DNA of 64,000 nt from Halorubrum alkaliphilum (GTDB lineage Archaea > Halobacteriota > Halobacteria > Halobacteriales > Haloferacaceae). Position 1 is the stretch's first letter. Each line of letters starts with the position of its first letter. The notes under the pieces were generated by a model. That model had not been told where the DNA came from. It saw only the letters and a program-made list of their open reading frames with translations, and searched no databases. A program made the translations under genes and the position numbers. Positions 51,633 through 58,425 of this stretch are shown one piece after another. The stretch is from assembly GCF_017873815.1 (NCBI RefSeq), contig NZ_JAGGKQ010000005.1:124001-188000 (forward strand). Reading direction: 5' to 3'.

Positions 51633-51660
51633 TCATTCTGGGTAGTACGTGTGAGTGTAC

Positions 51661-52860
51661 ATGGATCCCGAAGCGATGGATTTCCCAACGCCGGAATCGG
51701 ATGTCGAATCGATCGAGCCGGAGGCGCTCAAAGAGCGTATCGACGGCGGCGATGACGTCACGCTGCTCGATGCGCGTATGGAAAGCGATTATGAGGAGTG
51801 GAAAATTGACGGCGAGAACGTTGAGAGCATCAACGTCCCATACTTCGAGTTCCTCGACGAGGAGATCGACGGCGACGTGCTCGCGTCCATCCCCGATGAC
51901 GAACACGTTACCGTTCTCTGTGCGAAGGGCGGTGCCAGCGAATACGTCGCTGGCGCGCTCGCGGATCGTGGCTACGATGTCGACCACCTCGAAGAGGGAA
52001 TGAACGGCTGGGCGTTGATTTACGAGGCCCACGAGGTCACCGACTACGACGGTACAGGAACGCTGCTACAGTACCAGCGTCCCTCCAGTGGCTGTCTCGG
52101 CTACTTCGTCTACGACGACGGCGAGGCCGCCGTCATCGACCCGCTGCGGGCGTTCACGGATCGGTACCTCGAGGACGCGGCCGAGTTGGGCGTCGAGTTG
52201 ACGTACGCGCTGGATACCCACGTCCACGCCGATCACATCTCCGGCGTCCGTAAGCTCAACGAGGAAGGCGTGGAGGGCGTCATCCCCGAGGCTGCCGTCG
52301 ACCGCGGCGTTACCTACGCCGACGAGCTGACCACGGCCGAAGACGGCGACACCTTCGAGATCGGCGATGCTACTATCGAGACCGTCTACACACCCGGCCA
52401 CACCACCGGGATGACCTCGTACCTCGTCGACGACGGCCTACTCGCGACCGGCGACGGACTGTTCATCGAGAGCGTCGCACGCCCCGACCTCGAAGAGGGC
52501 GACGAGGGCGCGCCGGACGCCGCGCGGATGCTCTACGAGTCGCTACAGGAACGCGTCCTGACGCTCCCCGACGAGACGCTCATCGGTGGTGCCCACTTCA
52601 GCAGCGTCGCAGAGTCCGCCGCTGATGGCACCTACACCGCACCCATCGGTAACCTCGTCGAAGAGATGGAGGCTCTGAGGATGGACGAAGACGACTTCGT
52701 CGACGTGGTTCTCGCGGATATGCCGCCGCGACCGGCCAACTACGAGGACATCATCGCGACGAATCTCGGACAGAACGTCGTCGACGACGACGAGGCATTC
52801 ACCCTCGAGCTCGGCCCGAACAACTGCGCAGCCAGCCAGGATGCACTCACGAGCGACTAA
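51661..52860 (+). CDS. Rhodanese plus MBL-fold (persulfide dioxygenase-like) fusion
   Basis: 399 residues. Residues 10-125 are a rhodanese domain with the catalytic loop LCAKGGA (Cys87). Residues 130-370 are an MBL domain with THVHADH (186-192), PGHTTGM and GDGLFIE, similar to ETHE1-type persulfide dioxygenases. The pair suggests oxidation of glutathione-like or coenzyme persulfide to sulfite, with sulfur handled by the rhodanese. A GTG at 51655 is an alternative start. Confidence 0.85.
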   Translation: MDPEAMDFPTPESDVESIEPEALKERIDGGDDVTLLDARMESDYEEWKIDGENVESINVPYFEFLDEEIDGDVLASIPDDEHVTVLCAKGGASEYVAGALADRGYDVDHLEEGMNGWALIYEAHEVTDYDGTGTLLQYQRPSSGCLGYFVYDDGEAAVIDPLRAFTDRYLEDAAELGVELTYALDTHVHADHISGVRKLNEEGVEGVIPEAAVDRGVTYADELTTAEDGDTFEIGDATIETVYTPGHTTGMTSYLVDDGLLATGDGLFIESVARPDLEEGDEGAPDAARMLYESLQERVLTLPDETLIGGAHFSSVAESAADGTYTAPIGNLVEEMEALRMDEDDFVDVVLADMPPRPANYEDIIATNLGQNVVDDDEAFTLELGPNNCAASQDALTSD

Positions 52861-52884: not shown

Positions 52885-53442
52885 ATGATCGCCGAGCTAC
52901 TCGGTTCCGGGACGTTTGAGGCGCTGTTCCCGAACGGAATCTCCCGATACGCCGTCGGAGGCATACTCGTCGGGCTCGGAACCGCCATCATCTATCTCGG
53001 AACCGGGATTACAGCCGGTGCGAGCACGTTCCTCGAGTCGACGCTGTCGTACATTTCCGAAACGGAACGATTCACGCAGTATCGGCCGTCGCGTGACTGG
53101 CGAATCGTGTTCACGTTCGGCATCGTCGGCGGGGCAGCGATATACGCCCTGACCTTCCAGTCGGGACTGGTCTCCAGTGGTCTTTATGCGACGGGCACGA
53201 CCGGGGAGCTGCGAGACGTCGGCGTATTCACCATCTGGCTGACCGACGTCCAGCCGTGGCGGCTGTTCGTCGGCGGCATCCTCGTCGGTATCGGAACCCG
53301 ACTCGGAAAGGGCTGTACGTCGGGCCACGGCGTCTGTGGCGTCGGCTCCGTCTCCCGGACCTCGCTCATCGGTGTTGTCACGTTCCTCATCGTCGCAATC
53401 GTGACCGCGAACCTCGTCGCTGTAATGGGGATCTCGCCATGA
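52885..53442 (+). CDS. YeeE/YedE-type sulfur transporter, N-terminal half
   Basis: 185 residues with about four membrane segments. GCTSGHGVCGVG is the signature motif with pore cysteines implicated in thiosulfate uptake in YeeE. Second half is encoded by the next gene, with ATGA overlap. Together they make one split transporter. It follows the rhodanese-MBL gene by 24 bases. Confidence 0.86.
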   Translation: MIAELLGSGTFEALFPNGISRYAVGGILVGLGTAIIYLGTGITAGASTFLESTLSYISETERFTQYRPSRDWRIVFTFGIVGGAAIYALTFQSGLVSSGLYATGTTGELRDVGVFTIWLTDVQPWRLFVGGILVGIGTRLGKGCTSGHGVCGVGSVSRTSLIGVVTFLIVAIVTANLVAVMGISP

Positions 53443-53855
53443 GCCGGCATCCGCTGTTCATGCCGCTCATCCTGCTCGGTGGGCTCGTCTTCGGCTTCGG
53501 TCTAGGATTCAGCCACATGGCGCGCCCGGAAGTCGTCCTCAACTTCCTGACGTTCGACGACCTCGGTTTGCTGTTCGTGATGTTCGGCGGCTCCATCGTC
53601 GCCGGACTCGCGTTCTGGCTCGTCCCCCGACTCCGGTCGAATGCCCCACTCACCGACCGCCCGTACGGTCGACGGCTGAAGCCGTTCGATCGAAACGTTC
53701 TGATCGGCGGCTCGATCTTCGGCGTCGGCTGGGGACTGTCGGGAATCTGTCCCGGTGCCGCCTACGCCAGCCTCGGTGTCGGTAACGTCACCATCCTGTG
53801 GGCCATCGCCGGGATGTTCCTCGGGGCCTACGCACAGGGCGTTTGGCGAAGCTAG
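53439..53855 (+). CDS. YeeE/YedE-type sulfur transporter, C-terminal half
   Basis: 138 residues with four membrane segments. GWGLSGICPGAAYASLG is the matching signature of the second half (DUF6691 type, by memory). Start ATG 53439 overlaps the previous stop by four bases. Predicted polysulfide or thiosulfate importer. Confidence 0.86.
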   Translation: MSRHPLFMPLILLGGLVFGFGLGFSHMARPEVVLNFLTFDDLGLLFVMFGGSIVAGLAFWLVPRLRSNAPLTDRPYGRRLKPFDRNVLIGGSIFGVGWGLSGICPGAAYASLGVGNVTILWAIAGMFLGAYAQGVWRS

Positions 53856-55089: not shown

Positions 55090-56112
55090 TCAGTCGTCAC
55101 CGTGTGGTGTTACATCGGTGGTGACCTTCCGTTCACGGACGGCCAGTGCGCCATAGTAGATGATGACTGCGGTGACGAAGATTGAGGATCCGATGAGCAG
55201 AACAAAGCTCACGGTGTCGAGTATCGGCATCTCGAACCAGTTGGCGAACTCGCCGAAGGCGACCGCAACACTCGCCAAAAGCAACATGATGCCGAAGTAG
55301 ATGGTCACGTCGTCCTCGTCGACGTAGGCCGTTGACGCCGACCCGATCCGGGCACCGAGTGCGCTACCGACGAGCAGCGCCGTCACGACGCCGATATCGA
55401 TGACGCCCGAGAGCCCGTAGCTGAACGCCCCAACAGCGCCCGACATGAGCGCACCGAAGAGGCTCGTCCCGACGGCGGCCGCAAGGGGTACACCGATAAG
55501 ATAGTAGATGGCGGGCATCCGGATGAAGCCACCACCAACGCCGAGAAAGCCCGAGACGACGCCGACGCCGCCGCCAACCCCCGAGATGGTCCACATCGAC
55601 GCCTTGCTGCCGTCGGTTAGCGTCACCATCGGTGGGATATTGTACGATTTGATCTTCTTCGCGATCTCGGGAATGTCGTCGTCGGTCTGCTGATCGTCGT
55701 CTTCGGAGGCATCCTGTTTGAGCGCGTTTCGCGTGAACACGATGCCGATCGCACCCAGAAGCAGGACGTATGCGGTGCCGACGACCAGTTCGGCCTGCCC
55801 GATGGCTTCGAGGCCGAAGACGAGCATCTTCCCGGCCTCGATACCGAGCACGATACCGACGAACATCAGCGCGCCGAGTTTGTAATCGACCTGTCCGACA
55901 TCGTGGTGTTTCAGAGTCGCGATCACGGCTGTTCCGAAAACGAACGCCATCGAACTCCCGATAGCGACCGGCGCAGGATAGCCGAGAATCAGGAGAGCAG
56001 GGGTGACGAGAAACGACCCGCCCATTCCGAAGAACCCGAAGAACACCCCCACCATAAAGCCGAAGCTGACGAACAGTACGAGCAGCTCCGGGGGAAGTCC
56101 GAGCAGTTCCAT
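55090..56112 (-). CDS. TauE/SafE-family sulfite exporter-like permease
   Basis: 340 residues, eight or nine membrane segments in two halves with the duplicated glycine-rich motifs GFFGMGGSFLVTPAL and GFLGVGGGFIRMPAI. A charged cytosolic loop (about 134-160) separates them. Exports sulfite or related organosulfonates by homology, which would match sulfite production by the MBL enzyme. Its start follows the small protein stop by two bases. Confidence 0.88.
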   Translation of the reverse strand: MELLGLPPELLVLFVSFGFMVGVFFGFFGMGGSFLVTPALLILGYPAPVAIGSSMAFVFGTAVIATLKHHDVGQVDYKLGALMFVGIVLGIEAGKMLVFGLEAIGQAELVVGTAYVLLLGAIGIVFTRNALKQDASEDDDQQTDDDIPEIAKKIKSYNIPPMVTLTDGSKASMWTISGVGGGVGVVSGFLGVGGGFIRMPAIYYLIGVPLAAAVGTSLFGALMSGAVGAFSYGLSGVIDIGVVTALLVGSALGARIGSASTAYVDEDDVTIYFGIMLLLASVAVAFGEFANWFEMPILDTVSFVLLIGSSIFVTAVIIYYGALAVRERKVTTDVTPHGDD

Positions 56113-56114
56113 TA

Positions 56115-56264
56115 TCAGACGCTTTCGATGACTTCGAGAATCGGCGGTGCGATGCGTTCTTCTATCAGTCCGTATCCGACATAGAGGACGATTGCCTCGA
56201 CGAGGACGAGCGTGACGACGAGTGCCGCCTGTACCGCTATCGGGAGGGCCGAGATCGCTATCAT
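56115..56264 (-). CDS. Small single-helix membrane protein (DUF7512-type)
   Basis: 49 residues. IAVQAALVVTLVLVEAIVLYVGYGL is one membrane helix. Similar mini-proteins precede TauE/SafE genes in other haloarchaea (family number from memory). ATG 56264 fits a minus-strand TATA-like stretch at about 56306-56317; the longer frame to 56324 begins inside that promoter. Perhaps an accessory subunit. Confidence 0.66.
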   Translation of the reverse strand: MIAISALPIAVQAALVVTLVLVEAIVLYVGYGLIEERIAPPILEVIESV

Positions 56265-56454
56265 ACGACCGACCACCCCATCCGCAATGGTTGTGTGGGA
56301 ATCATACTTTTTACTCACCTTCACCTACGCCTGCCGGAGGTAATAACAGTTTTGGGACCTCTATACAATATTATTGAAGTGTATAAGATAGGTAACTGAC
56401 GGAGATATTGGTGTAAGTTATGAAAATATAGTGTTCCCGGGGCGGACACAGCTT
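56265..56454. other. Intergenic, A+T-rich with dyads
   Basis: Contains CAATA-T-TATTG at 56366-56376 and TATAC...GTATA at 56362-56385. These resemble the dyads near tusA. No gene recognised. Confidence 0.35.
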
Positions 56455-56769: not shown

Positions 56770-57026
56770 ATGGCCGATTCGATGAGCGAACATCTCAAAC
56801 AGGAGGTGCGGTTGAGGGGATTCTGGAGCGTACCCACGCTCTGAAGACCTCATTGACATCCTCCCCGCGCTGAAGCGCGAGGCTTTCTCCTCGATTCTCC
56901 GTAAAGAGATTTCCGCCTGCTTATCGAGCAGGACGACCACGCACCGTCGACGAGATCGCCGAGGAAGTCGAGCGAGAGCGGGCAATCCCATGCCGACAGG
57001 TTCTACTTTCCGCTGTCGAACGGTGA
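56770..57026 (+). pseudogene. Decayed HTH transcriptional regulator
   Basis: Pieces of one protein appear in different frames. From 56782, MSEHLKQE is the opening of a haloarchaeal winged-helix regulator usually found near sulfur and stress genes. After a shift, VEGILERTHALK continues it. Then comes an IS-end-like hairpin (56853-56890), then RDFRLLIEQDDHA (from about 56909), and after another shift TVDEIAEEVERER (from about 56945). The usual C-terminal half is absent. It therefore carries at least two frameshifts, an insertion and a deletion. Family recognised by memory of related sequences. Confidence 0.65.
56853..56890. mobile_element. IS200/IS605-type right-end remnant
   Basis: TTGACATCCTCCCCGCGC, then TGAA loop and GCGCG, is the hairpin seen at the ends of haloarchaeal TnpB-type elements. 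Read on the minus strand it gives KASRFSAGRMS, close to text often seen in those ends. No transposase gene remains. It lies inside the broken regulator. Confidence 0.55.
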
Positions 57027-57030
57027 ACCG

Positions 57031-58425
57031 ATGGCGTCACCGTCCAACGGTTCGTCTACCGTGTTTCTGGTGACCGTCGCGGCGAACGTCGTCCCGCTAG
57101 TCGGCGTGCTCCACCTCGGGTGGAGCGCACAGACGTTCGCGGTCGTCTACGCGATCGAACTGGTCGTCGCCGTCCCGTTTGCTGGATTGAAGGCGTTGTT
57201 CGCACGCCGCCCGCCGGACTACGACGAGCTGGAGCGTCCACGGAGGGATACCCCGCTCAACTCCGACGAGCTGGGCGAGAGTTCCGTCGGATCGAGCGAC
57301 CTCAAGCGCCGGCGCGGGAGCGTCACGGTCGTCGACTCGCTCCCGCCGATATACCCTCGGAACGTCCCGTTCGTCTTACAAGCGGTTGGGACTGCTGTGA
57401 CACTCGTTGGGGTGTTCCTCTTCACACTGAGCCGTTTCATCAACGTGCCGGCAACGCTTGCTGACCCGATCGTGGCGGCGAGCGCCGTCTCCCTTGTCGT
57501 CTCTCAAGTCGGCCTTGTTAGTCGTGAATACTTCGGCGAGCGGCGCTACAGGACGAGCACACCCCGGAAGGTGATCAGTAGCGCAAAAAACGAGGCGTTT
57601 GTAGCCGTAGTGGTGCTCTGGTTTGCGGCCGTCGGCGGTCCGACCGGCGCGCTGGTTGCATTCGTTATGGTGAAGCTGTTCATGGAGTGGCGGAGCTACC
57701 GCGACGGGGTAGCGGTCGATCCTGACGAGGGGTTGGGAACGCTCCCGCCCGTGGCGGCTCCGGACGTGCCGCCGACGGCCGAGGTCCGTCCGGACCGGTG
57801 TGCGGTCCACGCCACCGCACTCTGGCGGGGCGTGAAGTCCGCGGTTAGCGGCGGCCCAGTGTACCTCGTCGCGTGGGTCGGGCTCACTGCCGGATCGGCG
57901 GGGGGAGTCGCCGCAACCGTGGTCTGTTTCGGCTTTCTACCGGCCGCCATCGGCGGGCTGAAGACCGTCGAGTACGTCCTCACCCATGGCACACTGGTGT
58001 ACCAGCGCCGCGACGACGCGGTGGTCGCGTACGACGACCTCACCGAGGCGGTCCAGTGGGTGATCCCCGTCGACGATGTCCGGGACGCCGAGCTGTGTGA
58101 GGGGGAGTTCGTCGACCGTGCCTACGACACCCGGACGTTCTCGCTCACCACGTTTGTGGGCGAACACGAACGCAGCGTCGCGCACCTCCGGGAGTACGAC
58201 CGGGCCGTCGAGGCGTTCGAACTCCCCGTCGAGACGACGGTGTTCGGTCCGCTTGACCGACGTGTGGTCGGGGCGGCAGCTGCGGTTGGAGCCTGTGGCG
58301 TCGCCGCCGTGGTTGGCCTCGCCTCCTCCGCCCCCACCGTCGCGGCGGTCGCCGCCGGGTTCGGCGGCCCGTTTGGCGTCGTCGCCCTCAGATCGGCGTG
58401 GCAGTGGGCGCTCCCGGCCGCCTGA
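57031..58425 (+). CDS. DUF6498 membrane protein
   Basis: 464 residues. About ten hydrophobic segments (for example VTVAANVVPLVGVLHLGW and LAWFAAVGGPTGALVAFVMVKLFMEW-like regions), with DUF6498 around residues 10-250 (PPIYPRNVPFVLQAVGTA, VMVKLFMEWRSYRDG). A C-terminal part (about 290-410) has a PH-like cytosolic segment. Function is unknown. It is intact although flanked by pseudogenes on both sides. Confidence 0.8.
   Translation: MASPSNGSSTVFLVTVAANVVPLVGVLHLGWSAQTFAVVYAIELVVAVPFAGLKALFARRPPDYDELERPRRDTPLNSDELGESSVGSSDLKRRRGSVTVVDSLPPIYPRNVPFVLQAVGTAVTLVGVFLFTLSRFINVPATLADPIVAASAVSLVVSQVGLVSREYFGERRYRTSTPRKVISSAKNEAFVAVVVLWFAAVGGPTGALVAFVMVKLFMEWRSYRDGVAVDPDEGLGTLPPVAAPDVPPTAEVRPDRCAVHATALWRGVKSAVSGGPVYLVAWVGLTAGSAGGVAATVVCFGFLPAAIGGLKTVEYVLTHGTLVYQRRDDAVVAYDDLTEAVQWVIPVDDVRDAELCEGEFVDRAYDTRTFSLTTFVGEHERSVAHLREYDRAVEAFELPVETTVFGPLDRRVVGAAAAVGACGVAAVVGLASSAPTVAAVAAGFGGPFGVVALRSAWQWALPAA

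Follow-up and report, generated by a model that had tools for sequence, protein, structure and literature searches.

The window (the whole 64,000-nucleotide stretch of Halorubrum alkaliphilum DNA analysed here) contains at positions 56770-57018 a TrmB-type winged-helix regulator gene whose function had been lost or was being lost, and which was probably, with a likelihood of roughly 0.8, hit by a 48-bp non-autonomous IS200/IS605-type element consisting of the fused ends of its parent. The pseudogene itself is ordinary and it is the passenger element that is of interest; the element belongs to the already described terminal-only PATEs, and what is new is evidence on the question of their mobility. 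Chances appear evenly balanced for the stronger reading that the 48-nt single hairpin is a complete TnpA substrate serving both ends, within a TTAC/TCAA family that tends to land harmlessly on the stop codon G-TAA and supplies a new in-frame TGA. The features concerned are collected in Table 1.

Table 1. Features of the regulator remnant, its 48-bp insert and the neighbouring genes, in window positions; words of the element are given as read on the strand stated
Feature	Position	Strand	Sequence or remark
MBL-rhodanese gene	51655-52860	+	sulfur module
YeeE-like Sulf_transp gene	52885-53442	+	sulfur module
YeeE-like/DUF6691 gene	53439-53855	+	sulfur module
TauE/SafE sulfite exporter family gene	55090-56112	-	divergent from pseudogene
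Small DUF7512 protein gene	56115-56324	-	upstream of TauE
5' part of decayed TrmB-type regulator	56770-56852	+	MADSMSEHLKQE..., -1 shift, EGILERTHALK, -1 shift
48-bp single-hairpin, gene-less IS200/IS605-type element (terminal-only PATE)	56853-56900	-	GGAGAATCGAGGAGAAAGCCTCGCGCTTCAGCGCGGGGAGGATGTCAA
Right cleavage word TCAA	56853-56856	-	IS608 CR word, by sequence; TTGA on + strand
Hairpin common to both parent-element ends	56863-56882	-	CCTCGCGC-TTCA-GCGCGGGG
Guide word AAAG	56883-56886	-	5' foot of hairpin; IS608 GL word, by sequence
GAAT	56894-56897	-	IS608 GR word, sequence match only; upstream in unit, off the hairpin foot
Target tetranucleotide TTAC, left cleavage site	56901-56904	-	IS608 CL word; GTAA on + strand; stays in host gene and is present in empty sites
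3' part of decayed regulator	56901-57018	+	RDFRLLIEQDDHA, -1 shift, TVDEIAEEVERERAIPCRQV.., then stop; C-terminal half missing
DUF6498 membrane protein gene	57031-58425	+

The decayed regulator

The initial annotation had proposed a pseudogene of a haloarchaeal winged-helix regulator, with four peptides following one another in different frames, and this was confirmed by three-frame translation, in which MSEHLKQE and RDFRLLIEQDDHA share one frame and VEGILERTHALK and TVDEIAEEVERER another, in the order proposed. A search with the joined peptides recovered regulator homologues in 52 of 59 relatives. The family proved to be TrmB (PF01978; E 1.4e-14 in the intact paralogue), with an additional resemblance of the intact family to Sta1/Lrs14 regulators that fell below the cut-off. 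In the tblastn comparison that had been suggested as a check, two pieces in the window each matched an intact homologue independently. With the 48-bp insert removed, the remnant DNA is 79.5% identical over 161 bases to an intact homologue (L009), with an alignment score of 159 and a maximum of 52 among 500 shuffles. Multiple alignment with 20 intact homologues placed four single-base gaps in the window copy, two of them in the 5' part, which aligns with codons 1-29; the copy stops near codon 63, the intact homologues having approximately 134 codons, and the insert sits cleanly between aligned columns.

The remnant has accordingly lost the intact reading frame through four one-base deletions and the loss of its C-terminal half, a combination of four separate lesions and a truncation that could not plausibly be ascribed to sequencing error, and of which the 48-bp insert need not be the cause. 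As a killing event the insertion is unsupported, since 48 bp is 3 x 16 and the frame runs open through the insert (IDILPALKREAFSSIL). The insert lies mid-gene, and the sole open reverse frame of the unit is the one that the regulator would use; being frame-neutral and matched to the frame of the gene, the insert can therefore at most have contributed to the decay, and is otherwise a passenger.

A C-x5-C pair is conserved among intact regulators of this family. Within homologues L009-L029, which are intact and often lie beside sulfur genes, the pair appears as a conserved C-E-G-L-x-E-C at codons 15-21, and the conserved residues make the intact TrmB-type regulators candidate thiol or persulfide sensors. 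The codon for the second conserved cysteine reads CGT (Arg) in the remnant.

The insert as fused ends of a TnpB element

The gene had initially been described as interrupted by the end of a TnpB-type element. The hairpin is indeed of IS200/IS605 type, but the insert is sharply bounded on both sides and forms a complete 48-bp unit rather than a single end: read on the minus strand from 56904 to 56853, the site consists of TTAC followed by the unit, 52 bp counting TTAC. The same genome holds a parent element (contig G000:C26) of 1,495 bp (1,499 bp with TTAC), bounded by TTAC and TCAA and encoding an intact TnpB, which runs from TTACGGAGAATCGAGGAGAAAG-CCTCGCGCTTTAGCGCGGGG to GGGAAT-CCTCGCGCTTCAGCGCGGGG-AGGATGTCAA. 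Its two hairpins are 20-bp direct repeats with the loop as their sole difference, and joining its left end (TTACGGAGAATCGAGGAGAAAG-hairpin) to its right end (hairpin-AGGATGTCAA) through the common 20-bp hairpin yields the exact 52-mer. In the 48-bp element, then, both ends of a 1.5-kb TnpB element have a single hairpin in common. The genus also contains intermediates of 318-373 bp and full-length versions of 1,478-1,496 bp. In the region G000:C26:11500-14030 (L050), three IS605-type end sequences occur within 2.5 kb, including those of the intact 1,495-bp TnpB element.

The unit contains no transposase and no terminal inverted repeats, has a near-terminal palindrome and creates no target duplication, as is characteristic of terminal-only PATEs. 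IS608, the IS200/IS605 element of H. pylori, uses TTAC and TCAA as cleavage words and AAAG and GAAT as guides (PMC5934647). The unit has the corresponding TTAC, TCAA and, 5' of the hairpin, AAAG; GAAT, the right-end guide, is missing from the foot of the single hairpin, which has AAAG instead, and this absence counts against mobility of the unit. The parent holds all four words in the IS608 positions, including GAAT at its right end. An alternative hairpin pairing CGAGG with CCTCG, which would bring GAAT to the foot, was rejected, as some left ends retain CGAGG although there is no CCTCG in their hairpin, and one base pair of the alternative hairpin would be broken by a CAAGG variant common in both units and full-length left ends. 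The predicted hairpin has an 8-bp stem of unexceptional stability (z about -1.2). By analogy with IS608, an IS200-type TnpA supplied in trans would excise and insert the 48-mer as single-stranded DNA, with TTAC presumably read by the AAAG guide.

A Y1 transposase associated with matching ends is present in related genomes, in two tnpA-bearing relatives (L249, with TTACAGAGAATCGAGGAGAAAGCC, and L250, with full left and right ends). The genome of the window itself has two Y1 transposase matches, one of which has an internal stop; the intact one was excluded as the mover by its different ends. No Y1 transposase with matching ends was found in this genome, in which the 48-bp unit may be immobile today.

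Distribution of the unit

A DNA search gave matches with nearly identical end positions on both sides across Halorubrum. Among the matches listed there were 57 copies with at most three mismatches, in 29 of 52 genomes, and the same mismatch search with a reversed control pattern found no copies. At 58-62 distinct sites (about 60, unrelated), TTAC together with the 48 bp forms a sharp block of 52 columns between random flanks, and over 58 distinct sites the bases immediately outside the block on either side are already close to random in composition, the +1 base being G at 24, T at 16, C at 12 and A at 6, with no preference for C. The 52-mer is identical at 16 sites, and exact copies also occur in Haloquadratum walsbyi J07HQW1 and on a Halobacterium hubeiense plasmid. 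Copy number is 1-5 per genome. Among virus sequences, INPHARED contains one exact 48-mer, and the IMG/VR viral contigs contain none.

Two minor readings were also considered. There is a very slight chance that the unit is kept as a stand-alone source of the 3' scaffold in a TnpB omega-RNA, the flank acting as guide. Published TnpB guide-RNA scaffolds are far longer than 48 nt, which counts against this reading, as do flanks that are random and have no guide in common. Pointing the other way are a weak Rfam HgcC match across the unit (window 56843-56944, minus strand; 27.4 bits, gathering score 50), HgcC being a family with a possible relationship to RNAs from IS605 right ends, and the strong transcription of a 489-bp PATE in the virus HRTV-DL1 (PMC10544981). 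Slighter still is the chance that a decayed IS200/IS605 element simply left one of its ends behind as an inert relic. The right end of the parent is indeed part of the unit, and the unit does sit in a pseudogene, but both of its boundaries are exact and recur at about 60 sites, and the regulator alignment is uninterrupted once it is removed.

Empty sites and a probable insertion in a virus

Once the 48 bp are taken away and TTAC is kept, the regulator aligns across the site exactly in frame and free of gaps. Empty counterparts were also identified elsewhere, for site L057 as GTCGTTAC/TCGTACTC in a relative 90% identical, and for site L040 as GTTAC/GC (slashes mark the junction). The Halorubrum tailed virus isolate DL (OP630575) carries the unit (L253, OP630575.1:16048-16097), whereas isolates DL1 and DL_1.7 (OP630574, OP630576) are empty and read GGTATTAC/TGAAATATG, with TTAC/TGAAATATG at the junction. 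DL1 and DL are approximately 98% identical over 332 neighbouring bases, and the length difference between them is exactly 48 bp, with no sign of a longer element. The occupied site in DL reads TCAC, not TTAC, a single substitution that is later than or concurrent with the insertion and could block re-excision. As both empty isolates have TTAC, the empty site is likely the ancestral state, and comparison of these near-identical isolates likely polarises the event as an insertion of the unit. That virus isolates differ by exactly 48 bp suggests, from the sequences, that so small a DNA can itself move.

A first alternative is collapse in situ, in which full-length TnpB elements lose their core by recombination between the hairpins, leaving 48 bp behind, and the unit never moves. 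A comparison of Haloquadratum strains has documented such collapse for HqIRS46 and for ISHwa23 (PMC3119063), and the 20-bp direct repeats formed by the parent hairpins, differing only in the loop, would lend themselves to it. However, 0 of 38 full-length left-end sites had flanks in common with a unit site, the single match being a TTTA-loop unit caught by both patterns. There are also genomes with exact units but no parent, such as that of H. saccharovorum (G066), in which two exact units occur but a search allowing three mismatches gave no full-length left end. The sister viruses, locally 98% identical and exactly 48 bp apart with no long form, likewise argue against collapse, as does the excess of loop TTCA (31) over TTTA (6) among units with CGAGG. 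Collapse in situ is regarded as improbable.

Landing on stop codons

Open frames coming from the right flank terminate precisely in the target G-TAA at 25 of 61 units, compared with 128 of 873 background TTAC sites, an enrichment of approximately 2.8-fold (odds ratio 4.0, p 1.7e-6) in which open frames of at least 100 codons stand in for annotated genes, so that the fraction is approximate; the other two phases account for 8 and 12 units. These loci include L057, L038, L040, L036, L255 and about 20 others. Insertion turns xxG-TAA into xxT-TGA, the end of the element supplying the new in-frame TGA, and protein length was kept at all 12 sites examined, with the last residue usually kept as well. 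Selection against harmful insertions would suffice to explain the enrichment. A preference peculiar to the units was ruled out, given that full-length right ends lie at G-TAA stops at a similar frequency (23 of 55).

This shared preference is accounted for by a second alternative, aberrant transposition of the parent, in which TnpA, working on the full-length element as single-stranded DNA, would connect the left portion of one hairpin with the right portion of the other and the 48-bp products would be inserted directly, made afresh each time and never acting as donors. Direct 48-bp insertions and the absence of GAAT from the hairpin foot are equally accommodated. Variants specific to units do, however, recur, and are easier to explain if units copy units: CGGGG is present at two unit sites in genome G014 and absent from the full-length left ends found there, and a unit with CAAGG and GGAG recurs at different loci in G065 and G029. 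Genomes with units and without a parent are a further difficulty, and aberrant transposition is considered unlikely overall, though a more serious competitor than collapse to the reading of the 48-mer as a mobile unit.

Relation to known elements

Terminal-only PATEs of 52 bp were described in Haloquadratum as products of repeat-mediated deletion that 'may' be mobilised (Dyall-Smith 2011, PMC3119063). The unit resembles those of H. walsbyi (the HqIRS46 core deletion and the 52-bp form of ISHwa23) in its length of 52 bp counting TTAC and in its derivation, the ends of a PATE or of a 1.5-kb IS1341-type element being fused through the near-terminal palindrome; it differs in occurring throughout the genus Halorubrum, where empty sites are precise and sister viruses polarise an insertion. 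As in IS608 (PMC5934647), insertion occurs 3' of TTAC without duplication and the four words are present, whereas IS608 has two hairpins together with tnpA and tnpB, and the unit has one hairpin with AAAG alone at its foot, no genes and no C preference at +1. REP/REPIN units (PMC2817692, PMC3116915) are likewise very short hairpin DNAs, presumed to be mobilised in trans by a Y1 (RAYT) transposase, but the present unit has only 1-5 copies per genome, lacks REPIN pairing and has IS605-type ends. Borrelia plasmids also contain free-standing IS605 stem-loops linked to the 3' ends of genes; there a single flanking stem-loop has been copied beside lipoprotein genes (PMC2775950), in contrast to the present two-ended unit with a defined target.

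The sister viruses and the genus-wide empty sites constitute a natural experiment favouring the mobility of 52-bp terminal-only PATEs. Were the 48-nt unit a full TnpA substrate, it would rank with the smallest DNA elements that move in nature, with one hairpin, one foot guide and two cleavage sites, an arrangement for which current models of IS608 offer no obvious room. Should the 48-mer move, it would represent a class of mobile DNA hopping between hosts and viruses, and annotation pipelines would be overlooking mobile DNA with in-frame insertions or insertions that take the place of stop codons.

Surroundings of the regulator

For the sulfur locus itself the outcome is modest, a dead regulator. 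To the left of the pseudogene lie the MBL-rhodanese gene, the two YeeE-like genes and a USP gene, followed on the opposite strand by TauE and DUF7512. The proposed placement of this regulator type beside sulfur genes holds for 12 of 20 sampled homologues, which lie within 1.5 kb of a TauE, YeeE or MBL-rhodanese gene (9 of 20 adjoin TauE and 3 more adjoin YeeE), but not in the same arrangement: in relatives the regulator is downstream of and co-directional with TauE/YeeE, whereas in the window it is divergent from DUF7512-TauE. Strict positional orthology with the TauE-linked regulators was ruled out by these differences in side and orientation, and with the orientation differing, the same control role is not to be assumed here. 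Loss of local control over the sulfur module, or its takeover by a paralogue, as proposed in the initial annotation, would be one conceivable consequence of the decay. The search for a second, intact copy recommended in the initial annotation recovered one intact paralogue in the same genome (G000:C4; L049, 6724-7188), which adjoins enoyl-CoA hydratase genes and, downstream as with the remnant, a DUF6498 gene; no sulfur genes were present within the 14 kb examined around it. In another species (L028, G003:C64, reverse-complement 1317-1368), a diverged 52-bp unit lies approximately 130 bp upstream of an intact TauE-linked TrmB regulator, a proximity that is probably due to chance.
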